This document shows, piece by piece, positions 25,266 to 37,911 of a stretch of 64,000 nt of DNA; position 1 is the stretch's first letter, and each line of letters begins with the position of its first letter. The stretch is from Sneathiella sp. P13V-1 (GTDB lineage Bacteria > Pseudomonadota > Alphaproteobacteria > Sneathiellales > Sneathiellaceae): contig NZ_WYEU01000002.1 of the NCBI RefSeq assembly GCF_015143595.1, positions 744,001 through 808,000 on the forward strand. Direction: 5' to 3'. The position numbers and the translations under genes are program-made. The notes under the pieces are model-generated. The model did not search any database. It worked only from the letters and a program-made list of their open reading frames with translations, and was not told the DNA's origin.

Positions 25266-25290
25266 CCCCGCATATTGCGGGGTTTTTTTT
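25266..25290. terminator. Bidirectional terminator between the beta-oxidation gene and the MFS gene
   Basis: Stem CCCCGCA (25266-25272) / TGCGGGG (25276-25282), loop TAT, followed by eight T. It lies 22 nt after the hydratase/dehydrogenase stop and touches the stop of the convergent MFS gene. An A-run (25261-25264) on the left gives a short T-run on the other strand. Confidence 0.85.
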
Positions 25291-26770
25291 AGGTTGATGT
25301 TTGTTCTTTCCGATAGGTTCGAAGCATGTAAATTGCAGGGACAAGGGCAAGTGCAAACACGGTTGCGGTGATCATAAAGACATCCTGAAAAGTGTGGGTC
25401 ATGATTTCAACTGTTTGGCCCTGATTAAGTGGTCCGCTGGCATTTATCTTGGCTTCGGCCACATAACCGTTTGTTTTGGCAGTGATCAAAATTGCGGTGA
25501 GATTAACCCCGATGGAGCCGCCGACCATCCGCACAAAATTAAGCGATCCTGAAGCTTGCGTCACTCGGTTGGGAGGAACGGATGAAAGGCCAAAGGTGCT
25601 GTAGGATGGCATAACAAAACCAAGGCCAACACGTCCCACAATAATCCAACCCGCCAGATAGAGATAATCCGTGTTTTGTTCCGAATAGCTCAGGATAAAA
25701 GTTGAGACGATAAAGAGAACTTGACCAAAAAGGATCAGTCGATGGGCAGGCATGATGTCAATCAAACGTCCAACGACGGGAAATACGATGACCATCAACA
25801 GGCCAGCGGGGAAAAGGACCATTCCAGCGTCTGTAGCCGACGCCCCTTGAACAGTTCGGGCAAATAAGGGAATGGCATAAAAACTGGAAAACAGCCCCGC
25901 ACTTGTGAAAACACCAATCATCGTGGCGGAAGAAAACTTTAGGTTCTTAAAAAGCCTGAGATCCACAAGAGGATTTGCGCTTGTCCAGTCGCGCCGGAAG
26001 AACAAAGTAAACCCGATACAGGCGATTAAGAAGTAAGGATAAACTTTTATGCTGGTTACTGAATTAAATTGCGTATTGGTAAAGGCCGTAAGCAATGCTG
26101 CCACTGAAAGTGCGATCAGTATAAAACTCAGCATATTGAAACGTACTTTCTCACGCTCCCCAGATCGGTTGGGCAGGAATACAAACCCGAGAAGAGCGGA
26201 AAGCAGGGCGAGGGGGATCACCAAGGAAAAAGTAGTATGCCAATCCATGCTGTCAGTAACGATCCCGCCAATAACCGGACCAAAGGCGGGGCCTATCACA
26301 ACACCCATTCCGAACAGACCCATGGCTCGTCCCCGCATATTTGCAGGAAAGAGAAGAAAAATAAGGGACATGGATAGAGGTTGCAGGATACCCGCGCCTG
26401 CACCTTGAAGAAGTCGCGCGATAACAAGAATGGGAAAATTAAAAGATTGCCAACCGAGCAAACTGCCAACCACGAAAACACCAATAGCAATAAGAAAGGT
26501 CGCCCGCGTGCCAAACTGGCTTACCAGCCAGGCAGTTGCCAGCATGGCAATGCTACTGGCGCATAGAAAACCTGTTGAAAGCCACTGCGCGTCACCTTGC
26601 GAAATTCCAAAGGTTGCCATTACATCTGTCAGGGCCACATTGACCATCGTCGATGAAAAAATGGTAGTCAAGAGGCCCAGAACAACAGCACCACCAGCCA
26701 TCCATTTATACGCTTCGCCATATCTAGCCTGCAAATATTCATTTCGGGATTGGCCGGATGCATCGCTCAT
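25289..26770 (-). CDS. DHA2 family MFS transporter (EmrB/QacA type)
   Basis: Proton-driven drug or metabolite exporter of the 14-helix DHA2 group. 493 residues with about 14 hydrophobic segments. Motif-C-like RLLQGAGAGILQPLSM and the first-helix pattern STMVNVALTDV are typical of EmrB. No EmrA-type adaptor is adjacent. Its ATG overlaps the stop of the CoA transferase gene by one base (TAATG), so both are co-transcribed. It may export an aromatic acid or toxic intermediate of the neighbouring pathway. Confidence 0.88.
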   Translation of the reverse strand: MSDASGQSRNEYLQARYGEAYKWMAGGAVVLGLLTTIFSSTMVNVALTDVMATFGISQGDAQWLSTGFLCASSIAMLATAWLVSQFGTRATFLIAIGVFVVGSLLGWQSFNFPILVIARLLQGAGAGILQPLSMSLIFLLFPANMRGRAMGLFGMGVVIGPAFGPVIGGIVTDSMDWHTTFSLVIPLALLSALLGFVFLPNRSGEREKVRFNMLSFILIALSVAALLTAFTNTQFNSVTSIKVYPYFLIACIGFTLFFRRDWTSANPLVDLRLFKNLKFSSATMIGVFTSAGLFSSFYAIPLFARTVQGASATDAGMVLFPAGLLMVIVFPVVGRLIDIMPAHRLILFGQVLFIVSTFILSYSEQNTDYLYLAGWIIVGRVGLGFVMPSYSTFGLSSVPPNRVTQASGSLNFVRMVGGSIGVNLTAILITAKTNGYVAEAKINASGPLNQGQTVEIMTHTFQDVFMITATVFALALVPAIYMLRTYRKEQTST

Positions 26771-27897
26771 TATTCGCTGCCAAATTCTTTCCTAAGTGCC
26801 GCATTATGTTCGCCCAAGGCGGGAATTGGGCCGTAACTTTCCTCATCACCTGCAAATCTAATCGGTGAGGAGATGAGGCTGACAGGTCCATTTTCAGATT
26901 GGACCTCCGTTCGTTCCAATTGTGGATGGTCGATAAGATCAGCAACTGTGTTTAGAGACCCAAAGGCAATGCGAGCCTTTAAAAGCTTATCTGTCAGGAC
27001 ATTTCTTTCTTGCGTTGCGAATATATCCAGAATTTCCTGACGAAGCTGTTCCCGGTTAGCAACCCGAAGCTCATTATTGGCATAATCTGGATGGTCTACA
27101 AAATCAGGACGATCCAGAACCTGTTCACACAAGTTTTTCCATTCGGTCTGATTTTGAATGGAGATCACGATTTCACCGCCATCTTTTGCCGTGAAGGCCT
27201 CATAAGGAGCAATTGAAGGATGACTTAACCCACCACGTCCCGGCGCCTTGCCACCATATTGCTGATGGAGAAGAGGGACCGTCATCCAATCTGCCATCCC
27301 GGCAAATAATGTGGATTTAATGGATTTGCCTTTTCCGGTCGTCTTCCTCTCATAAAGGGCTTCCAATACAGCAACAAGGCCATGCATACCCGCTGCAATA
27401 TCACAAACTGAGACACCAACCCTTCCGGGTTCCTGCGGTGACCCAGTCACCATGGCTAGACCTGTTTCAGATTGAACCAGCATGTCGTAGGCCTTCATTT
27501 TGGCAAATGGTCCATCTTCACCATATCCGGAAATATCAACTGTAATCAGTCTTTTATTGGTAGCGCGTAGGTTCTCACTGTCCAAATCGTATTTGTCCAC
27601 TACATTAGGGGCAAGGTTTTGAATAAACACATCCGCTTTGCTAATAATTTTTTTCAGTAAAGCAAGATCTTCGTCCTTTTTTATATCCAATTGGAGGGAT
27701 TCTTTGCCTCTGTTGAGCCAGACAAAATAGGCGCTTTGACCATTGACGACACTGTCGTAATAGCGTGCGAAATCGCCTTCGGGCCGTTCAATTTTGATTA
27801 CGCGCGCACCGGCATCAGCAAGGCGCGAAGAAAGGTAAGGGGCCGCAACGGCCTGTTCCAGTGAGACCACAAGGATATCGTTCAAAGGTCGTGACAT
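26770..27897 (-). CDS. CaiB/BaiF family CoA transferase (class III)
   Basis: Transfers CoA between carboxylic acids through a protein-bound anhydride. 375 residues, slightly shorter than typical formyl-CoA transferase. N-terminal Rossmann segment (VVSLEQAVAAPYLSSRLADAGARVIKIERP region) and the catalytic aspartate D166 in GVSVCDIAAGMHG. It is coupled to the MFS gene. An itaconyl-, succinyl- or aryl-CoA role cannot be chosen from sequence. It diverges from the luxP-like gene. Confidence 0.9.
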   Translation of the reverse strand: MSRPLNDILVVSLEQAVAAPYLSSRLADAGARVIKIERPEGDFARYYDSVVNGQSAYFVWLNRGKESLQLDIKKDEDLALLKKIISKADVFIQNLAPNVVDKYDLDSENLRATNKRLITVDISGYGEDGPFAKMKAYDMLVQSETGLAMVTGSPQEPGRVGVSVCDIAAGMHGLVAVLEALYERKTTGKGKSIKSTLFAGMADWMTVPLLHQQYGGKAPGRGGLSHPSIAPYEAFTAKDGGEIVISIQNQTEWKNLCEQVLDRPDFVDHPDYANNELRVANREQLRQEILDIFATQERNVLTDKLLKARIAFGSLNTVADLIDHPQLERTEVQSENGPVSLISSPIRFAGDEESYGPIPALGEHNAALRKEFGSE

Positions 27898-28089: not shown

Positions 28090-29211
28090 ATGATGTACAG
28101 AAAAGCTATGACATTAGTAGCGACCCTTGCTGCAATGCTAACCATATTCGTCCATGCCGAATATGCATTTTCAGCTGAACAAAGCACAACATATTGGACT
28201 GTTGACGAATATCTCTCCAATAACCCTTCACAGGTTGATTTATCTGAAAGTTTCGAAAAGAAAATTCAGAGCGCCGTTTCGGGTAAATCCAAAGTTACAA
28301 CCCCAGTTAAGATCGTGATGGTATTACCTGGATTGCAGGTATCCGATTACTGGCGTCGCAGCATTACTTCAATGGAAGAACGGCTTAAAGAACATGGTGT
28401 TGACTATGTGCTGAAAACACATTTTACAAAGCCCGGTGATGTGTTCCGTGAACAGAGTAAAGTACTCATTCAGTATTTGAGTGAAGATCCTGATTATGTT
28501 GTTTTCACGCTTAATGCGGATCAACATAAAACGTTAATTAGTCAGCTTATCAGAAAACCAAAAATAAAGGTAATGCTGCAGAATATTACAACTCCCTTAA
28601 AAACTTTTGGCGCGAGGCAACCTTTTCTGTATGTGGGTTTTGACCACCGTATCGGGACTGAGCAGCTCGCGCAGGTTTATTTAAAGCGTTTTGGTGGAAA
28701 AGCGAAGTTTGCCATATTGTATGGAGAGAAGGGATATGTCAGTGAAATGCGATGCGGCGCCTTTGAGGATTTAATGAGAGCCCATCCGGAGATGATTCAA
28801 CTGACAACTTACCATGTGGGTTTTAACCGTGAAAAAGCGTACCTTGCGACAAAAGATGTTTTAACTGCCCATCCTGATATAGATTTTGTTTTCAGTTGCT
28901 CAACAGATATTGCTTTTGGTGCGATAGATGCCATCAAAGAAGCAGGTAAGCAAGACAGGGTGATCACTAATGGCTGGGGGGGAGGATCCGCGGAGTTGCA
29001 GGCCATTGAAGATAAAGAACTAGCCTTTACTATTATGCGGATGAATGATGATAATGGCGTAGCGATGGCCGAGGCAATCGTCATGGACATTAACAAATTG
29101 GGTGAAAAGGTTCCCGTCATCTACTCAGGATCAATGGTCATCGTTGATCAAAAAACAAGTGTAAATCGTATTATGGAACTTAAAACGCGTGCCTTTAGAT
29201 ACTCAAAATGA
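28090..29211 (+). CDS. luxP: LuxP-like autoinducer-2 binding periplasmic protein
   Basis: Periplasmic binding protein of the sugar-binding type I fold, very like Vibrio LuxP, which binds the borate diester form of AI-2 and signals through LuxQ. 373 residues with a signal peptide (about 1-28, cleavage near AFSA). Counterparts of all LuxP ligand residues are present: Q83, S85 and W88 in PGLQVSDYW, N165 in LQNITTP, R221, S271/T272/D273 in SCSTD, W296 in NGWGGG and R317 in MRMNDD, with near-constant offset to the Vibrio numbering. It overlaps the next gene, a LuxQ-like kinase, by 23 nt. RBS AGGGCGG upstream. The 192-nt gap before it holds no other gene. Confidence 0.92.
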   Translation: MMYRKAMTLVATLAAMLTIFVHAEYAFSAEQSTTYWTVDEYLSNNPSQVDLSESFEKKIQSAVSGKSKVTTPVKIVMVLPGLQVSDYWRRSITSMEERLKEHGVDYVLKTHFTKPGDVFREQSKVLIQYLSEDPDYVVFTLNADQHKTLISQLIRKPKIKVMLQNITTPLKTFGARQPFLYVGFDHRIGTEQLAQVYLKRFGGKAKFAILYGEKGYVSEMRCGAFEDLMRAHPEMIQLTTYHVGFNREKAYLATKDVLTAHPDIDFVFSCSTDIAFGAIDAIKEAGKQDRVITNGWGGGSAELQAIEDKELAFTIMRMNDDNGVAMAEAIVMDINKLGEKVPVIYSGSMVIVDQKTSVNRIMELKTRAFRYSK

Positions 29212-31801
29212 GAAAGTAAAAAAGGGAATTAAACTCCAGCTCCTGCTGGCGGGAGGGTTGTTTAGTGTTCTGACGCTGGTGACGCTTGCCATTCTGGTTG
29301 TCACGTTTTTCAGTTCCAGCCTGGTTATAGATAACGAACGGCAGCAGATTTCAGGGAAAAGTGGTGCTATCGCTGATCTCGTCCTGGAAAAACGCATGGA
29401 TGCCTCTCGACAGTTTGCTGATTTGATCGCGGAAGAAGTTGCGACCAAACAAGCTGACAATCTGGAAGAAATTTATAGCTATATTGAAGCGGCGTTCTAT
29501 ACCCAGAAAGAGGGGAGTGTCGATTATGTCGCGCTATTGACAGAGCACGGCGATATTGTTGAGGAAATTCATATTCAACTGAACCAATTTCCGTCCATCC
29601 GTGAGCAGATTTCCAAAATGCGGACAAGCAGGAATTTGTGGAATATCGCAATTGAGCCTGAAAATAATCGTAATACTGCACAAGTACTTGTCTACTACAA
29701 AACAGAACTTCTAAATAAAAGGACGGGTAAGGTGGATGGATACATCCTTTCCGGCCTTTTTCTGAATGACAATGTGACGCTTTTGGAGGAAATAAAGAAA
29801 AGGACGAATGCAGATTTTGTATCCTTGGTGGTTCAGGGGTTTGAAGTCAGTAAATTTGGCGAACCTAAAGACGGAATAAGTTATTCGTCGGGGGCTGCAA
29901 AAATTGTAGAAAATAATAAAGATGAACTTTTCTTTGCTCCTCGTATTTTAGAGGATGTATTCCCTGACAGTGGACTTGTCGTATTTGTCCACTATCACAC
30001 CCTCGGATACCAACCTCTATCAAATCTTTATGTGGTTTCTGCCGCGCTCGGTTTTGTTGTCATCTTCATACTGTCCATATTTGCCTATTACATTGGGAAA
30101 AGTTTCATTGTTTCTCCGATCAAGCAACTTAGTAGTTATTCAAAAAGGCTGGAGAAAAGGGATAAACATGCGCCCACACCCAAGTTTGCGGCGGAAGAGT
30201 TTAATGACCTGACCAATAACTTGAAGAGTGTTTTCACTAATTTTATCGAAAGCGAGAAGAGATTTCAGGATTTCGCCAGTGTCACCTCAAACTCCATGTG
30301 GGAGACCGACTCTGAGCATAGGTATACCTTTATTTCACGGGATAAGAATGCCTCACAACCAACCCGGTATGGATCGCTGGTCGGATTAAGGCGATGGGAA
30401 GTGGAAGGTGTAGATTTCGACTATTCAGATTGGGAAGCACATAAAGTTGAAATCAGAGATAGAAAACATTTCCGGAATTTCATTTTCAGGCGCGTAAATC
30501 CTGTTGGTGAAATGGAATATTGGAGCTGTTCCGGTAAACCGATAATCAACGAAAGGGGTGACTTCCTAGGGTATAGAGGGACATCCACAAATATCACCGC
30601 AGAGTATCTGGCGCAGGAGGAAGCTGAACGTATTCAGGAACAGCTTCGTCAATCTCAAAAGTTGGAGGTTGTTGGGCAGCTAACCGGCGGTATCGCCCAT
30701 GATTTTAATAACCTTCTTGCCGTGGTTATTGGTAATCTGGAGCTTGCTCTTGAAAATGAAAGCCTGAATGCAAGCACAAAGAAACTTCTCAACGATGCGT
30801 TTCGTGGGGCAGAAAGAGGTGCCTCTCTTACGCATCAGCTGTTGGCCTATTCCAGGCAACAAACCCTAACACCATCCGTTGTAAAGCCAGATAATATTGT
30901 CAGTGGCATGTACAGCTTATTTACCCGTGCTGTTGGGGAAAGTATTTCTCTCAAGACGTTTCTGGAGAATAAATGGTCTGTGTATATTGACCCTAACGAG
31001 CTTGAAAATGCATTGATGAACCTTCTTGTGAACGCCCGGGACGCAATGCCCGAGGGAGGTGACATTTCCATCGAGAGCTTTGATGTCGCCATCGAAAAGG
31101 ATTTTCATGCTACAGGGAGTGATATCGAAGCTGGTGAATATGTTTGTATAGTGGTAACGGACAGTGGTTCTGGGATGAGCAAAGAAATTCAGGAACGAAT
31201 TTTTGAGCCGTTCTTCACAACAAAAGAGGTTGGAAAAGGTAGTGGCCTTGGCCTGAGTATGGTGTTTGGTTTCGCTAAACAGTCTGGTGGTCACATCAGC
31301 ATTTATAGCGAAGAAGGAGTTGGCACCAGTATTAAACTCTACTTGCCAAGGGCCCTGCAGGAAGAAGAGAAAGCCACTAAATCAAGGGATGTAATTAGAT
31401 TTGGGAATGGCGAAACTGTTCTGGTCATTGAAGATGATGTGAAAGTCGCAGAAATGATTTCCAAACAGCTTCGGTCGATCGGATATGTACCTGATGTCTA
31501 TGTGGATTCGGAAGCTGGAATTCTGGCGCTCGAGAAAGATCAAGCGGACATTCTGCTCGTCGATGTCATTATGCCTGGAAGATTCTCCGGGTTTGATGTT
31601 GTGGAGCATGTGAAAGATAGATATCCGGGTCTTCCTTATGTTTTGATGTCGGGTTTTACAGGGAATAACCTGCCGACGGGTCAAAAGGACAAGGTGGTCA
31701 TAGAGAACATCCTCATGAAGCCATTTAGTAAAGTTCAGTTATCAGAAGCACTATACGTAGCGCGAATGCAAAACCCTGTATTGAAAAAGGCGAACCTGTA
31801 A
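29189..31801 (+). CDS. luxQ: LuxQ-like hybrid sensor histidine kinase
   Basis: Membrane hybrid kinase, 870 residues. Order: TM1 (about 15-38), periplasmic sensor region (about 39-275), TM2 (about 280-305), HAMP-like segment, PAS domain (about 355-473), HisKA with H504 in [11 protein letters not shown], HATPase with DSGSGMS and [11 protein letters not shown], and a C-terminal receiver with D792 in LLVDVIMPG. This is the LuxQ layout, although the HisKA is of the DFNN type. The start is GTG inside luxP. In Vibrio apo-LuxPQ acts as kinase and AI-2 turns it to phosphatase; that logic here is an inference. No Hpt is attached, so an external phosphotransfer protein is required. A terminator follows. 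Confidence 0.88.
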
Positions 31802-31820: not shown

Positions 31821-34079
31821 TCAGATGCTGTAACCAGCCTTGGTAATTGGGAGTTGTCTTAACCGGTCTCCATTGGCTTGAAATATGGCGTTCGTAACCG
31901 CCGCCGCGATGGGAGGCGTCCCTGGTTCTCCCACACCGCCCATGGGTCTTCCAGACGGGGCAAGTTCAACAATGATCTCAGGGCAAGTTTCCATAGTCAC
32001 CATCTGGTAGTCAGGGAAATTGCCTTGGACGACTTTTCCGCCATCCAGATTGATATCACCATATAGGGCAGCCGTTAGGCCAAATATGATGCCACTTTCC
32101 ATCTGCGCGATGACCGTATCCGGGTTCACAATAGTACCGCAATCTACAACGCAATATACCTTGTCAACTGACAGGTTCTTGTCGGCATCCACCGAAACTT
32201 CAGCTACCTGACCCACGATACTGCCAAAGGATTCATGCAAGGAAACACCGCGGCCCTTACCTTTACCAAGCGGGGATGACCAATTGCTGAGTTTTGCAAG
32301 TTTTTGTAAAACGTCACTGAAATCCTTGTGATCTGACAGATGTTTCATTCTGAAGTCAATGGGATCAGCGCCCGTTTTGGCAGCCAGTTCGTCCATAAAA
32401 CTTTCCGTAAAGAAAGCGTTATATGAATGGCCAACGCTACGCCAGTATCCGACAGGAACAGGAGTAGGGGACGGGAAATGCTCAACCAGCTTGTTCGCAA
32501 ACTGATAGGGCATGTCTGCCGAGCCTTCAGCCGTCGTATTGTCCGGCATGTCAGAGCCCGCCCATGGAAGCAGACGTTGTGTAAATTGACGGGTGATTGA
32601 GGGGCTGGCGATCTGATTGTGAAATGCGTCGATCTGGCCATCTTTACCAAGGGCGGCAGAGAATTTTGACAGAGCAGCCGGTCGATACATGTCATGCTGC
32701 ATATCCTGTTCTCTGGTCCAAATGAGTTTTACAGGCTTATCTTTGTATTCCTTTGCAATCTTCACTGCCATGACAAGGAAATCGACTTCTGCACGGCGGC
32801 CAAATCCACCACCCAGATAAGTGGTGTTTACTTTCACATTTTCTGCAGGAACATCAGCGGCTTGTTCAGCCAGCCATGCGGCCAAAGTTGCGGATTGATG
32901 TGCAACCCAGACTTCAACACTGTCATCACCAACTTTCGCTGTACAGTTCATCGGTTCCATTGTGGCATGTGCAAGGAAGGGCACTTTATATTCTGCTTGA
33001 AGTTTGTCGCCGCTGTTTTCAAGGGCAGTGATGGTATCACCTTCATCCACATAACTACGACCATCCCCGGCTGCGATATTTTTTTCAAACATGCCGTAGA
33101 TATTGTCCATGTCGAGGCTGCCATTGCCACCGTCATCAAAGGTGACTTCAATTTCTTCCACCGCCATTTTTGCACGCCAGAAGCTGTCTGCGATAACAGC
33201 CACAGCATTGTCGAGCTTAACTGTTTTCAGAACACCTGGCATTTTCTTTGCTGCGGTGTCATCCCAGCTTTTGACAGTTCCCCCAAATACAGGGGCAATT
33301 CTGACAGCCGCGAAACCCATGTCCGGTAAAACAACGTCAACGCCAAATCCGGCACTCCCATCCACCTTAGATGGCAGATCCAGTCGTTTCTGGCTTTTAC
33401 CGATGATTTTCCAGTCTTTAGGATCTTTAAGAGGGATATCCCGATCCAGTTTGATTTTCGAAGCATCTTCCACAAGTTCAGCATAAGTAGCTGATTTGTC
33501 GCCAGATCTGGTTTTGATTTCCCCATTTACGGCAACACATTGATCTGCAGATATTCCCCATTTTGTGGCGGCAGCTTGGATAAGCATTTCACGGGCAGTG
33601 GCACCCGCGTGACGCATCGGCTCCCAGAAGTTTCGAACACTCGTACTTCCACCGGTAACTTGCAAGCCAAGCATTTCGCCAACATTTCTCATCAGCCACG
33701 CACCTGCAGTGGCTTCCCCTTTATGGTGACCATCTGAGAAGGGTAAGCTATCCATGACAGCAACGACGTTGGCGTATTTTGGATCAACCGGTGCAGCCTC
33801 TGGCGTTACTTTATCTAAATCGACTTCAAGCTCTTCAGCAACGAGCATTGAAAGGGCGGTGTAAATTCCCTGTCCCATTTCTGCCTGGGAAATGGCAACG
33901 GTGATCTTTCCGTCGGTATTTATTTTTACCCAAGCATTTAACGGATATTCGCCTGCTGCGGCTGTTTTCTCAAAAACTGAAACGCCATCATCACCGCCCA
34001 GAGCATAAGCGACAGCTATACCGCCACCAACAAGCCCACCTGCGATCAGGAAGTTTCTGCGTGTCATCATTTTTGGCAT
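31821..34079 (-). CDS. Xanthine dehydrogenase family molybdopterin-binding subunit (IorB-like)
   Basis: Large subunit of a two-subunit molybdenum hydroxylase, closest in layout to isoquinoline 1-oxidoreductase beta or aldehyde dehydrogenases of that group. 752 residues. A Tat signal is clear: TRRNFLIAGG with Arg7-Arg8 and a hydrophobic stretch, so it is exported. Mo-pterin motifs include GGGFGRRAEVDF and the catalytic glutamate E718 in GVGEPG. It is encoded 4 nt after the 2Fe-2S subunit. No FAD subunit or maturation gene is adjacent; electrons probably go to a periplasmic cytochrome. Substrate unknown. Confidence 0.9.
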   Translation of the reverse strand: MPKMMTRRNFLIAGGLVGGGIAVAYALGGDDGVSVFEKTAAAGEYPLNAWVKINTDGKITVAISQAEMGQGIYTALSMLVAEELEVDLDKVTPEAAPVDPKYANVVAVMDSLPFSDGHHKGEATAGAWLMRNVGEMLGLQVTGGSTSVRNFWEPMRHAGATAREMLIQAAATKWGISADQCVAVNGEIKTRSGDKSATYAELVEDASKIKLDRDIPLKDPKDWKIIGKSQKRLDLPSKVDGSAGFGVDVVLPDMGFAAVRIAPVFGGTVKSWDDTAAKKMPGVLKTVKLDNAVAVIADSFWRAKMAVEEIEVTFDDGGNGSLDMDNIYGMFEKNIAAGDGRSYVDEGDTITALENSGDKLQAEYKVPFLAHATMEPMNCTAKVGDDSVEVWVAHQSATLAAWLAEQAADVPAENVKVNTTYLGGGFGRRAEVDFLVMAVKIAKEYKDKPVKLIWTREQDMQHDMYRPAALSKFSAALGKDGQIDAFHNQIASPSITRQFTQRLLPWAGSDMPDNTTAEGSADMPYQFANKLVEHFPSPTPVPVGYWRSVGHSYNAFFTESFMDELAAKTGADPIDFRMKHLSDHKDFSDVLQKLAKLSNWSSPLGKGKGRGVSLHESFGSIVGQVAEVSVDADKNLSVDKVYCVVDCGTIVNPDTVIAQMESGIIFGLTAALYGDINLDGGKVVQGNFPDYQMVTMETCPEIIVELAPSGRPMGGVGEPGTPPIAAAVTNAIFQANGDRLRQLPITKAGYSI

Positions 34080-34083
34080 GATA

Positions 34084-34542
34084 TCAGGCTCCTGTCTGGA
34101 TTTTTACGGCTTCGTGGATGGCTTTACGGATACGGGGGTACGTACCGCAGCGACAGATATTCGTGATAGAGGCATCTATATCTTCATCTGTCGGATTTGG
34201 ATTTTCCTCCAACAACGCGCTCACAGCCATGATCATGCCAGATTGACAATAGCCACATTGAGGTACCTGTTCTTGAAGCCATGCCATTTGAACGGCGGAT
34301 TGTTTTTCTTGTCCAATCCCTTCGATAGTTGTTATGTCTTTGCCGGCTGCTTCCTCAAGCGTGTATGAACAGGAGCGTACAGCCTCACCATCCACATGAA
34401 CCGTGCAAGCCCCGCATGCACCTACACCGCACCCAAATTTGGTGCCTGTCAACTTGACAGTATCTCTTAATACCCACAGAAGAGGGGTATCCGCCTCCGC
34501 GTCAACACTCGTTGGTTGACCATTTATGTTGAGATTTATCAT
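34084..34542 (-). CDS. 2Fe-2S subunit of molybdenum hydroxylase (IorA-like)
   Basis: Small subunit with two [2Fe-2S] clusters: a plant-ferredoxin type ([15 protein letters not shown]) and a C-terminal helical type (CGYCQSGM and CRCGTY). 152 residues from the ATG at 34542, the normal IorA length. A longer frame from 34599 is rejected: it would read through the promoter -10 and operator at 34566-34585, and MINLNINGQ is the family N-terminus. GGGAC precedes the ATG on the minus strand. Confidence 0.92.
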
Positions 34543-34565
34543 TATCTTGTGTCCCGGCAAAATTA

Positions 34566-34607
34566 AATGACCACTGGTCATTATAATGTTGGAATTCATC
34601 CAAACAA
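34566..34607 (-). promoter_or_regulatory. Promoter and palindromic TetR operator of the molybdenum hydroxylase genes
   Basis: A perfect 17-bp palindrome AATGACCA-C-TGGTCATT (34566-34582) overlaps a consensus -10 TATAAT read on the minus strand (34585-34580). A weaker -35 TTGTTT lies 16 nt upstream (34607-34602). Transcription would start near 34573, giving a leader of about 31 nt. The divergent TetR gene at 34699 is the natural repressor. Confidence 0.7.
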
Positions 34608-35496: not shown

Positions 35497-37911
35497 ATGT
35501 CCCTATATCCAGCACGTTTTACTCTAATTCGTGCCGCCGCTGTTGCGATACTGCTTTGCGGCGTTGGTATTTCTTTGATCGTTCAATTCCGAGTTCAAGA
35601 CAAACAGGATGGTATGTTCAAAGAATATATCACCTCTGAAAGCCGATTTCTGTCGCGCGCGGTGGAGGCTGAACTTCTGTCGGTTCAACGTGAATTACAG
35701 TTCTTATCCGAAAAATTTCTATATAACGGTGTCGAGGGCAGATCCAATGAACTCGGAGATTGGGCTTCATTTATCGCGAATATGCCCGGCGGATATACGA
35801 TTGCTGTAATTGCAGATGACATGACCGTGAAGTGGAATTATCAGGATATTAGTACGATTTCACTCGAAAATATTCTTAAGCAGCAAAAAAACAACTCATC
35901 TGAACTATCGAGCGGAGGAGTCTACAGCACCCCCAGTTTGAGTGTGGAAAATGCCTTTGATCATTATCTCGTTCTTCAAACGCCCTATGTTACAAGTCAA
36001 ACCGGTCAGCAGTTAAAATTTATGATGCTGCTAAATCCTGGGCCGTGGCTGCATAATGTTGTGAAAAACCTGAATTCAGAATATTCGAATAAGCAGTATG
36101 AAATGCTGATCAGGCAGGGAAATAAAATTCTATTGGAGAGCCCCAAATATTCGACTTCTGAATTTCAAGAATGGATCTCTACAACGCGTATTTCAGCAAA
36201 CGGTATTAAACTGGATGTCTCCATTCGCCCAACCGAAGCGCTGTATAGGCAGATACATCAGTTCTCTGGCAATTGGTTGATGTTGGCGGTGGCATCCGCT
36301 TTCTTCCTTGCTGCTTTACTTACTTATTTACTTGCACGCAGCAAGTCGGACAGCGAATTGAAAGATGAGGCAATTTCATTCCTAAAAAAGGAAAACAAGC
36401 GACACACGGACAAAATTGAATTTGTAAAAGCAAAAAACAGAAGTATGGATTGGTCACATTCCCATATTTTGAGAGACACGCGTCAATCACTGGAAGATTT
36501 GGTGCGTCTGGTGCTTCATCTCGATAAAGACAAGTTTCCGGAGCATGTGAAAAACCAGGTCAGGAACGTCAAAAATTCTGCTTTTTATCTGCTCGCCCTT
36601 TTAAGTCAACTTTCCACTTTTGATAGTGAAGATGAGGGTAACGGTTATGATTTGACGGATTTTGATATCGAAACTCTGATCTCGGGCTTGCTGAAAATTT
36701 TTGAACCGATGGCTGAACGGCGTAACATTATAGTCCACTATAATTTTATCGGTGATACAGCTACGCTATTAAGATCTAATCCGGAAGTCATTCGACTTCT
36801 TTTGTTCGAGCAAATAAAGGACATTTTGTCGTCAAGAACACATGGCACTTTAGGTGTGCTTGTAACGCTATCACCACAAATGGATAAAGAGCACCTTCTT
36901 GAGGTGGAGATAACTTTTCACGGGGATGAGCGGCATTTACGACCTTCTTCCGCTGGTGATAAATTTATCGAACCGCGTAGTGAGCTATTGAATATTTTGG
37001 GGGCGAGGTTCAAGTTTGAAGGGCCGCAAAGCTGGCAGGTTGCGACTGTTATCAGTATTCCAGTGAAAACGTCTAATCTGCAGCGACCCAAGGTTAAACT
37101 GTCCGGGACTGAAATTGAAATTCCTAACCTTCAGATTTTGCTGGTTGAGGACAATCACATTAATCAGTTGATTGTGAAGGAAATGCTGACATCTGACGGA
37201 CATATTGTCGTAGTTGCCCAAAATGGGGCTGACGCTTTGCAAAAAGTGAAACAGGCTCCCGACAGATTTGATCTAGTCCTTATGGACATTCAAATGCCCG
37301 TTATGAACGGTGTGGATGCAACCCGCGCAATCAGGGAAATGGGGATCTCTGAAGAACAACTTCCTATTTTTGCGATGACAGTAAATACCTTAAAAAGTCA
37401 GGTTGATAAATATATTCAGGCAGGAATGCAAAACGCATTGGTAAAGCCAATTATTCATGGTGAGTTGAGGCAGTCACTAGGCGCATTAATCTACAATCAA
37501 AAATCAGGTGATAAAGACTTTAGGGAAGTACCTGCCCCTGTAATGGCGATGCTATTGATAGATGAAGACATATTAGGAACCATAAAAAATCTAATGTCTA
37601 AAGAGCAAGTGCGTACGCTGGTTCAGACCTTGGAAAGCGGGATGGAGCAGAATTTCAAAGATCTGAAAAACCAATCAATTTCCATGAAGAAAAAACGGCT
37701 GGTTGCTCACGACATGAGAGGACAGGCTGCCAATTCAGGTTTTGTCGCTGTGGCTGATCTGGCCACTGTTATTGAAGAGCAATTGAATCAGGGTGGCTAC
37801 AAGGAAGCTGACGTCCGTGAATTGGAAGAGATATTTGATAGAACTCTTGCCGTTGCGAAAGAGTATCTGGAATGTAACAGTCCGGAAAATACAACATATA
37901 AAGATACTTAA
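35497..37911 (+). CDS. Membrane hybrid kinase-like protein with degenerate catalytic domain, receiver and Hpt
   Basis: 804 residues. TM1 (about 10-28), an extracytoplasmic sensor region (about 29-258), TM2 (about 262-285), coiled coil, then a HisKA-like helix pair with H323 in SHSHILRDT. The ATP-binding region lacks recognisable N, G1 and G2 boxes: the N-box equivalent reads EQIKDILSSRTHG. The receiver is intact (VEDN, D597 in LMDIQMPVMNG, Thr of FAMT, Lys of LVKP). A C-terminal Hpt has H738 in AHDMRGQAAN. It is probably a pseudokinase or phosphatase that relays phosphate through Asp597 and His738. It might serve the orphan receiver of the LuxQ-like kinase; this is inference. Confidence 0.8.
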   Translation: MSLYPARFTLIRAAAVAILLCGVGISLIVQFRVQDKQDGMFKEYITSESRFLSRAVEAELLSVQRELQFLSEKFLYNGVEGRSNELGDWASFIANMPGGYTIAVIADDMTVKWNYQDISTISLENILKQQKNNSSELSSGGVYSTPSLSVENAFDHYLVLQTPYVTSQTGQQLKFMMLLNPGPWLHNVVKNLNSEYSNKQYEMLIRQGNKILLESPKYSTSEFQEWISTTRISANGIKLDVSIRPTEALYRQIHQFSGNWLMLAVASAFFLAALLTYLLARSKSDSELKDEAISFLKKENKRHTDKIEFVKAKNRSMDWSHSHILRDTRQSLEDLVRLVLHLDKDKFPEHVKNQVRNVKNSAFYLLALLSQLSTFDSEDEGNGYDLTDFDIETLISGLLKIFEPMAERRNIIVHYNFIGDTATLLRSNPEVIRLLLFEQIKDILSSRTHGTLGVLVTLSPQMDKEHLLEVEITFHGDERHLRPSSAGDKFIEPRSELLNILGARFKFEGPQSWQVATVISIPVKTSNLQRPKVKLSGTEIEIPNLQILLVEDNHINQLIVKEMLTSDGHIVVVAQNGADALQKVKQAPDRFDLVLMDIQMPVMNGVDATRAIREMGISEEQLPIFAMTVNTLKSQVDKYIQAGMQNALVKPIIHGELRQSLGALIYNQKSGDKDFREVPAPVMAMLLIDEDILGTIKNLMSKEQVRTLVQTLESGMEQNFKDLKNQSISMKKKRLVAHDMRGQAANSGFVAVADLATVIEEQLNQGGYKEADVRELEEIFDRTLAVAKEYLECNSPENTTYKDT

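Follow-up and report, generated by a model that had tools for sequence, protein, structure and literature searches.

In Vibrio, the periplasmic protein LuxP recognizes the borated form of autoinducer-2 (AI-2; PMC12921845), and AI-2-bound LuxP turns LuxQ from a kinase into a phosphatase (PMC3386761); these statements, like all those below that carry an accession of this kind, refer to passages of the cited papers. We analyzed a stretch of 64,000 nucleotides from the alphaproteobacterium Sneathiella sp. P13V-1 (contig NZ_WYEU01000002.1, positions 744,001 to 808,000; hereafter, the window), where an original prediction had placed a complete LuxP/LuxQ-type module. The window contains a luxP gene that overlaps the gene for a LuxQ-type hybrid sensor kinase, and no LuxS was found in the genome. 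With a probability of roughly 0.77, we read this locus as a receiver-only AI-2 sensor, that is, a LuxP-LuxQ input module on an alphaproteobacterial-type (CckA/PRK13557-like) kinase core.

Among 138 genomes, LuxP orthologs were reported only in Vibrio (PMC524169), and a 2025 paper describes LuxP as exclusive to Vibrio and notes that doubts about AI-2 as an interspecies signal arose from the limited distribution of the two classic receptors (PMC12503165). The occurrence of LuxP outside Vibrio in bacteria without luxS has been known since 2008 (PMC2561040); in the section concerned, luxS-negative Oceanospirillales and deltaproteobacteria with LuxP are held conceivably to recognize AI-2, and for alphaproteobacteria LsrB alone is named. 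Another study lists 267 LuxP proteins, mainly from Proteobacteria, and reports AI-2 binding for three of them, which come from Proteobacteria and Deferribacterota (PMC12268683); its passages give no class breakdown, and its supplements may include alphaproteobacterial LuxP. The passages on LuxQ or its domain in two further papers treat no alphaproteobacterial cases (PMC8895600, PMC4822843), and in the open-access literature searched, which is part of the whole, we found no description of LuxP with a LuxQ-type kinase in alphaproteobacteria.

The LuxP protein and its binding pocket

The luxP gene (positions 28090..29211, plus strand, 373 aa), which encodes a predicted periplasmic AI-2-binding protein, and the luxQ-like gene (29189..31801, plus strand, 870 aa, GTG start), which was assigned through Pfam, NCBIfam and PDB matches, both have intact reading frames and overlap by 23 bases, exactly as originally located. 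A Sec-type signal peptide, with cleavage near residue 29, can be read by eye at the N-terminus of LuxP. The best PDB match of the protein is V. harveyi LuxP (1zhh/1jx6; phmmer E 2e-84, residues 34-372, aligned over 339), the best non-LuxP match being at E 1.4e-15, and the shared blocks QPFLYVGFDH and NGWGGGSAEL that had drawn attention to the gene lie within this alignment.

All ten residues proposed to contact AI-2 (Q83, S85, W88, N165, R221, S271, T272, D273, W296 and R317) are at the positions given, and in our alignment the window protein and V. campbellii LuxP agree at every one of these pocket positions. The seven hydrogen-bond contacts published for 1JX6 (Gln77, Ser79, Trp82, Asn159, Arg215, Thr266 and Arg310; PMC9687752) are all present, as Q83, S85, W88, N165, R221, T272 and R317, with an offset to the V. 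harveyi numbering of +6 and, past a one-residue insertion, +7 in the PDB alignment; positions 271, 273 and 296 come from the earlier list, not from that paper. Of the 47 LuxP-type rows in the alignment, 14 are alphaproteobacterial, with the window protein among them, 32 are gammaproteobacterial, with V. campbellii as one of these, and one is from a metagenome-assembled genome (MAG) of Arcobacteraceae; the other rows are six ATP-binding cassette (ABC) transporter relatives and, from E. coli, RbsB, AlsB and LsrB. All 47 LuxP-type rows have the same residue at nine of the ten pocket positions, and position 271 is S, A or T; given that only 37 of the 373 columns are invariant, this conservation is not due to chance (hypergeometric P 3e-9). 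Further LuxP sequences, outside the 47 rows, are L022, L051, L055 and seven strong places in genomes of the Motilimonas order; two of the three named ones agree at the pocket, and L055, which is broken, agrees at the seven positions that it covers, the first three being missing. Inside the genus, identity to the window LuxP falls to 48-59%, with the pocket unchanged.

In a tree of 53 rows, for which L013 was trimmed by 80 N-terminal residues of an over-long start, the 47 LuxP rows split from the six sister ABC proteins with support of 100/99. The check by phylogeny suggested along with the original prediction thus came out in its favor, the window protein falling with LuxP and apart from its nearest sugar-type binding proteins. 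Within the LuxP part of the tree, the window protein is grouped with alphaproteobacteria, including its congeners, and not in the V. campbellii clade; support for the deep branches is weak, and the data neither establish nor reject one alphaproteobacterial clade (approximately unbiased test, p 0.37). A recent transfer from Vibrio is not supported, the alphaproteobacterial rows being outside the V. campbellii clade in this tree and in the 56-row tree described below. The low G+C content of luxP (0.417, compared to 0.470 for the window) says little about transfer because a TetR gene (0.425) and a second sensor gene (0.423) of the window are nearly as low.

A predicted model of LuxP (predicted local distance difference test, pLDDT, 77) retrieved five LuxP entries at ranks 1-5 of a fold search (Z 28.8-31.8, root-mean-square deviation 4.6-5.8 over 307-312), followed by a fructose-binding domain (Z 27.0). 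Sugar-binding proteins have the same fold, and therefore, sequence and tree carry the LuxP argument. A chance resemblance and a generic sugar-binding protein are both rejected by the PDB E-values, the pocket residues and the tree; judged by its sequence, the protein is LuxP, with all the features testable in this analysis present.

A relative of LuxP was observed on plasmid pRA01 of Roseicitreum antarcticum (L067, 5905-7041): a LuxP-sister binding protein with 33% identity to the window LuxP and the pocket ESWNRNTAWR, encoded between ABC permease and ATPase genes. A gene annotated as lsrK, for the AI-2 kinase, and one for a sugar-binding regulator are nearby, and the locus may be an operon for AI-2 uptake that includes a relative of LuxP.

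The LuxQ-type sensor kinase and its core

The kinase starts with a transmembrane segment (residues 20-38, positions 29246..29302, hydropathy 2.5), followed by the LuxQ periplasmic domain (residues 39-279, 29303..30025; PF09308, 38.5 bits with a cut-off of 25.7, and PDB profile search) and a second transmembrane segment (residues 280-298, 30026..30082, hydropathy 2.65). On the cytoplasmic side, a probable PAS domain (residues about 365-473, 30281..30607) is followed by HisKA (30674..30862; PF00512, 6.7e-9), with the predicted phospho-accepting His504 in the H-box, a CckA-like HATPase_c domain (30989..31351; PF02518, 2.1e-21) and a receiver (31418..31753; PF00072, 4e-12), with Asp792 as the candidate phospho-accepting residue by its motif; all these features are on the plus strand. 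The original prediction also included HAMP and PAS in this LuxQ layout, and this is the part that Pfam does not support, neither being listed for the window kinase at E up to 1; congener G168 has PAS_4 (5e-5) at the matching place, by analogy with which the PAS region was placed, and another congener, G391, has a marginal HAMP (0.048). The motifs of an active kinase and receiver, namely, H504, the N-box, the G-boxes, D792 and the K, are present.

A profile of eight periplasmic domains of the genus retrieved LuxQ chains alone from the PDB (E 8e-9, 1e-6 and 9e-6, the next match being at 0.23), and PF09308 is matched by 8/8 of these domains. To the Vibrio LuxQ equivalog model (NF041947), the window kinase scores 118.9 bits with a cut-off of 1200, its best stretch aligning residues 15-374 to profile positions 4-368. 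Against the PRK13557 and CckA models, the cytoplasmic part reaches 333 and 306 bits, respectively, both below the cut-offs (631 and 1000); the best PDB match of the kinase is 5idj (2.8e-40; named 'Histidine kinase'), with 5idm, in the same list, being CckA. The H-box is of the AHDFNN type, compared to SHEIRTP in V. campbellii, which, along with the PRK13557 and CckA scores, upholds the proposed difference between this core and that of Vibrio. From these matches we read the kinase as a LuxQ-type sensor on a non-Vibrio core, outside the Vibrio LuxQ equivalog.

A sensor gene immediately follows luxP in 12 of the 14 alphaproteobacterial cases and overlaps it in eight; in the other two (G407 and G368), luxP lies close to the edge of a contig, and in G368 a LuxQ-periplasm sensor is located at the edge of another one. 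All 12 downstream sensors match the LuxQ periplasmic domain, 11 of them over the cut-off and that of G107 under it (22.5 bits). The domains that follow are diverse. Cores of the AHDFNN type are found in the eight readable sensors of the genus and in G368 (where no receiver was found), G257 and G107 have SHELRTP kinases without a receiver, and the kinase of UBA2562 (G112, L020) adds a receiver and Hpt. In Magnetovibrio blakemorei (L024, 7127-9382), the LuxQ-periplasm kinase ends in a C-terminal hemerythrin domain, with luxP and a gene weakly matching SBP_bac_3 upstream; this sensor could respond to oxygen or redox state as well as to AI-2. In the gammaproteobacterial loci scanned, luxP is followed by hybrid kinases (G1070, G1061, G1019 and V. 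campbellii) or by GGDEF-EAL outputs (G1189 and G730, the latter with a LuxQ-periplasm match of 18.6 bits, below the cut-off), and two LuxP-linked LuxQ-periplasm proteins stop after PAS, with no output domain found (G1160, L079 4213-6162; G1021, L091 4384-6195). The similarity of LuxP correlates with that of the periplasmic domain over 231 pairs (r 0.90) and, for the 153 pairs with both parts, with the periplasmic domain at r 0.91 and with the kinase core at r 0.77; these values are descriptive only, given that the pairs share ancestry. UBA2562 has a second LuxQ-periplasm kinase (L101 4645-6816; G112 contig C332), with no luxP seen on its 8.1-kb contig.

Occurrence, genomic site and LuxS

Genome scans with the window LuxP, which matches weaker than E 1e-30 would escape, gave nine matches in 385 alphaproteobacterial genomes, of which seven are strong (at most 5e-92) and two, in G335 and G252, are weak and are ABC-type proteins. 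The LuxQ periplasmic domain is above its cut-off in 7/385 genomes, the same seven as those with strong LuxP (G107 only barely, with neighbours in frame); if the two were independent, this coincidence would have a probability of 4e-15, with the caveat that three of the seven represent one genus. An eighth genome, G352, has a LuxQ-periplasm match below the cut-off and no LuxP match. The seven carriers span five alphaproteobacterial family codes, with M. blakemorei (Rhodospirillales) as a further case, so that the module is not unique to the window genome; in the order of the window, LuxP is present in 9/25 genomes. Outside the class, two strong and two weak LuxP matches were found in the sample of Gammaproteobacteria, the class of Motilimonas (n=369), 36 strong and one weak in the Motilimonas order (n=295), and, in the class of the Arcobacteraceae MAG (n=150), LuxP in that MAG only. 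A single-sequence scan of genome contigs gave five LuxP loci, and an alignment query would probably reach further; the scan of viral contigs found no LuxP. LuxP is present in two copies, separated by about 21-44 kb, in two Motilimonas genomes, G978 and G935, and no LuxQ-type sensor was seen after the copies read (L021, L022, L086, L087, L088 and L090).

LuxS gave 0 matches in the genome of the window, which is rated 100% complete and in which SahH is present; the same search was positive in 5/14 control genomes. This leaves the genome with no match to the luxS that self-produced AI-2 quorum sensing would call for. Among the LuxP-bearing alphaproteobacteria, LuxS is present in 0/14, compared to 36/37 of the LuxP-bearing gammaproteobacteria (the exception being G730), and none was found in the Arcobacteraceae MAG.

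On one side of luxPQ in the window lies a divergent CoA (coenzyme A)-transferase/major facilitator superfamily pair (25289-27897, minus strand; reading frames and Pfam), and on the other, a molybdenum-hydroxylase-type pair (31821-34599, minus strand), the small subunit of which was recognized by Pfam and the large one read from the sequence. In the window and in six congeners (G168, G041, G403, G395, G390 and G391), luxPQ is located between the CoA-transferase and molybdenum-hydroxylase genes, and G407 and G396 carry luxPQ with one flank readable each. Nine of the 15 genus genomes without a LuxP match were read at this site, eight of them across it; the ninth, G397, has no second flank gene in the stretch read. 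In seven of the eight, the flanks are 800-828 bases apart, and the gap is filled by a gene of 222 aa (L130-L134, L136 and L138) for a methyladenine glycosylase (Pfam 2e-20), the other six copies being 65-68% identical to that of G393; in the eighth, G405, the flanks are 129 bases apart. None of the stretches read from the eight luxPQ-carrying congeners gave a match to the glycosylase gene, and at the eight sites lacking luxPQ, a search for traces of luxP or luxQ gave nothing better than E 2.5. The site therefore holds luxPQ, the glycosylase gene or nothing: in this genus, luxPQ is a present-or-absent cassette at one site, and luxPQ and the glycosylase are unrelated alternatives.

A second sensor gene in the window (35497-37911) encodes receiver and Hpt domains with no Pfam match to HisKA or HATPase and is possibly a degenerate kinase. 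As a candidate phosphorelay partner, it was dropped because no match at 1e-10 was found in 18 congener stretches, a weak result given that only some of these extend far enough beyond the TetR gene to show it.

Interpretation and comparison with known systems

Because the pocket, the sensor domain and the operon are the same as in Vibrio, the same input logic is likely. Periplasmic LuxP would bind AI-2 between its two lobes, most likely as the borate diester. The kinase encoded next to it would hold LuxP through its LuxQ-type periplasmic domain and would shift its kinase/phosphatase balance upon ligand binding. From His504, the phosphate would probably reach Asp792 and, from there, an Hpt protein or response regulator encoded at another locus, and not LuxU/LuxO, because the core is CckA/PRK13557-like instead of being that of Vibrio. 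With no LuxS found in the genome, the AI-2 must come from other organisms, so that this bacterium would listen without answering. The original interpretation is supported, with the statement that the bacterium senses AI-2 belonging, along with complex formation, the direction of switching and the downstream partner, to what we infer.

Several observations weigh against the receiver-only AI-2 sensor. In the first tree, of 56 rows including E. coli RbsB, AlsB and LsrB, the outgroup of nine rows was split, with the E. coli rows next to G730 and the six ABC rows among LuxP subgroups, and all nine were on one side of a branch in 13% of the bootstrap trees; the E. coli rows are on very long branches and hence unsurely placed, and the 53-row tree was built without them. 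The window periplasmic domain shares only 18-30% identity with those outside the genus, and its predicted model is poor (pLDDT 47): compared for a fold like that of 2hje/3c38, it gave a best match (Z 8.5) at chance level, and the LuxQ chains fell outside the 50 rows listed, which rules out nothing. From the window frames and Pfam, no response-regulator gene was recognized beside luxPQ. The lack of LuxS is not special to LuxP carriers because LuxS is rare in the class (3/294; G069, G106 and G119), its presence being unusual for alphaproteobacteria. Within the genus, 15/24 genomes, several of them incomplete, have no LuxP match, and two of the nine carriers are damaged, by real changes or assembly errors: G391 has a frameshift near the 3' end of luxP (L077 5820-6060) and G395 has stops in the receiver part of luxQ (L073 8640-9180). 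Finally, Vibrio LuxP also accepts L-xylosone and L-xylulose, at micromolar levels (PMC12921845), so that the natural ligand need not be AI-2.

This last point leads to the alternative that retains the most weight, although we consider it unlikely: the protein would have the LuxP fold but sense a different furanose or borate-diol compound (for example, L-xylulose, L-xylosone or a metabolite of algae or of a host), of which AI-2 would be only a look-alike. The lack of a detectable LuxS in the organism would fit such a sensor, as would the position of the nearest relatives outside the LuxP clade among ABC-transporter genes, with RbsD/FucU and aldolase genes in Roseicitreum. The full set of V. campbellii pocket residues in the window LuxP argues for AI-2 instead: of the six columns that are invariant in LuxP and absent in all six sister ABC rows, two are the pocket positions Q83 and D273, and N165 is lost in five of these six rows.

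A role of LuxP in AI-2 uptake or chemotaxis, instead of with the neighboring kinase, is improbable. The sister binding proteins are encoded in ABC-transporter operons, one near the annotated lsrK, and the Motilimonas LuxPs were read without an adjoining LuxQ-type sensor; against this, the window frames and Pfam revealed no ABC-transporter gene beside luxP, and the LuxQ-periplasm sensor adjoins luxP in 12/12 readable alphaproteobacterial loci, with the co-occurrence holding in 7/7 genomes. We give equally little credence to direct binding of the signal by the LuxQ-type periplasmic domain, which has a Cache-superfamily fold, with LuxP as an accessory. Domains of the dCache_1 family can bind AI-2 (PMC11796354), and some members match dCache_1 below its cut-off, but PF09308 is the only family matched by all eight domains of the genus, and the LuxP pocket is intact and strongly constrained. 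That luxPQ is a decaying leftover without function, as the patchy presence and the two damaged copies might suggest, is the least credible possibility, given the intact frames and kinase motifs in the window and the pocket kept unchanged in diverged congeners.

An intact-pocket LuxP with a LuxQ-type sensor in five alphaproteobacterial families of the sample and in Magnetovibrio, with LuxS in none of the 14 carriers, bears on the Vibrio-only view of LuxP. A natural comparison is offered by the congeners, some of which have the cassette at this site and some of which lack it, so that listening without sending is directly testable, and the swapped cores would reveal how one input controls different outputs. 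More broadly, we are inclined to think, with less assurance than for the window itself, that LuxP and the LuxQ periplasmic domain make up a portable AI-2 input cassette that has been reassorted in several bacterial classes among unrelated outputs, including Vibrio- and CckA-type hybrid kinases, Hpt or hemerythrin kinases and GGDEF-EAL proteins, and that in alphaproteobacteria, which rarely make AI-2, this cassette would be gained and lost as a unit and serve only eavesdropping.

Among the described systems, the LuxP proteins of luxS-negative Neptuniibacter, Marinomonas, Desulfuromonas and Desulfovibrio (PMC2561040) resemble the window in combining LuxP with a lack of luxS. Three of these four LuxP genes adjoin one for a PAS-containing regulator, and Desulfovibrio has neither a luxQ-like nor an ABC-transporter gene nearby; these cases are gamma- and deltaproteobacterial, and the section describing them includes no alphaproteobacterial LuxP or LuxQ periplasmic domain. 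Listening to AI-2 by bacteria without luxS has likewise been proposed for Sinorhizobium and Rhodobacter with LsrB (PMC3386761). LsrB differs in that it is a transporter protein and has another pocket, and in our alignment the E. coli protein shares 0/10 pocket residues and 17% identity with the window LuxP; an lsr-type identity of the locus is at odds with the absence of the LsrB pocket from the window LuxP and of recognized transporter genes beside it. The Vibrio LuxP/LuxQ system (V. harveyi; PDB 1jx6, 1zhh, 2hj9 and 3c30) shares with the window the full-length LuxP and its pocket and the LuxQ sensor half and, in V. campbellii, the luxP-luxQ gene order with an overlap, whereas the SHEIRTP core of V. 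campbellii LuxQ is replaced by the CckA/PRK13557-like AHDFNN core, in a genome where no luxS was found. With the CckA/PRK13557 hybrid kinases, the model cut-offs of which it does not reach, the window kinase has in common the HisKA-HATPase-receiver core, and it is set apart from them by its LuxQ-type periplasmic sensor and its LuxP partner.

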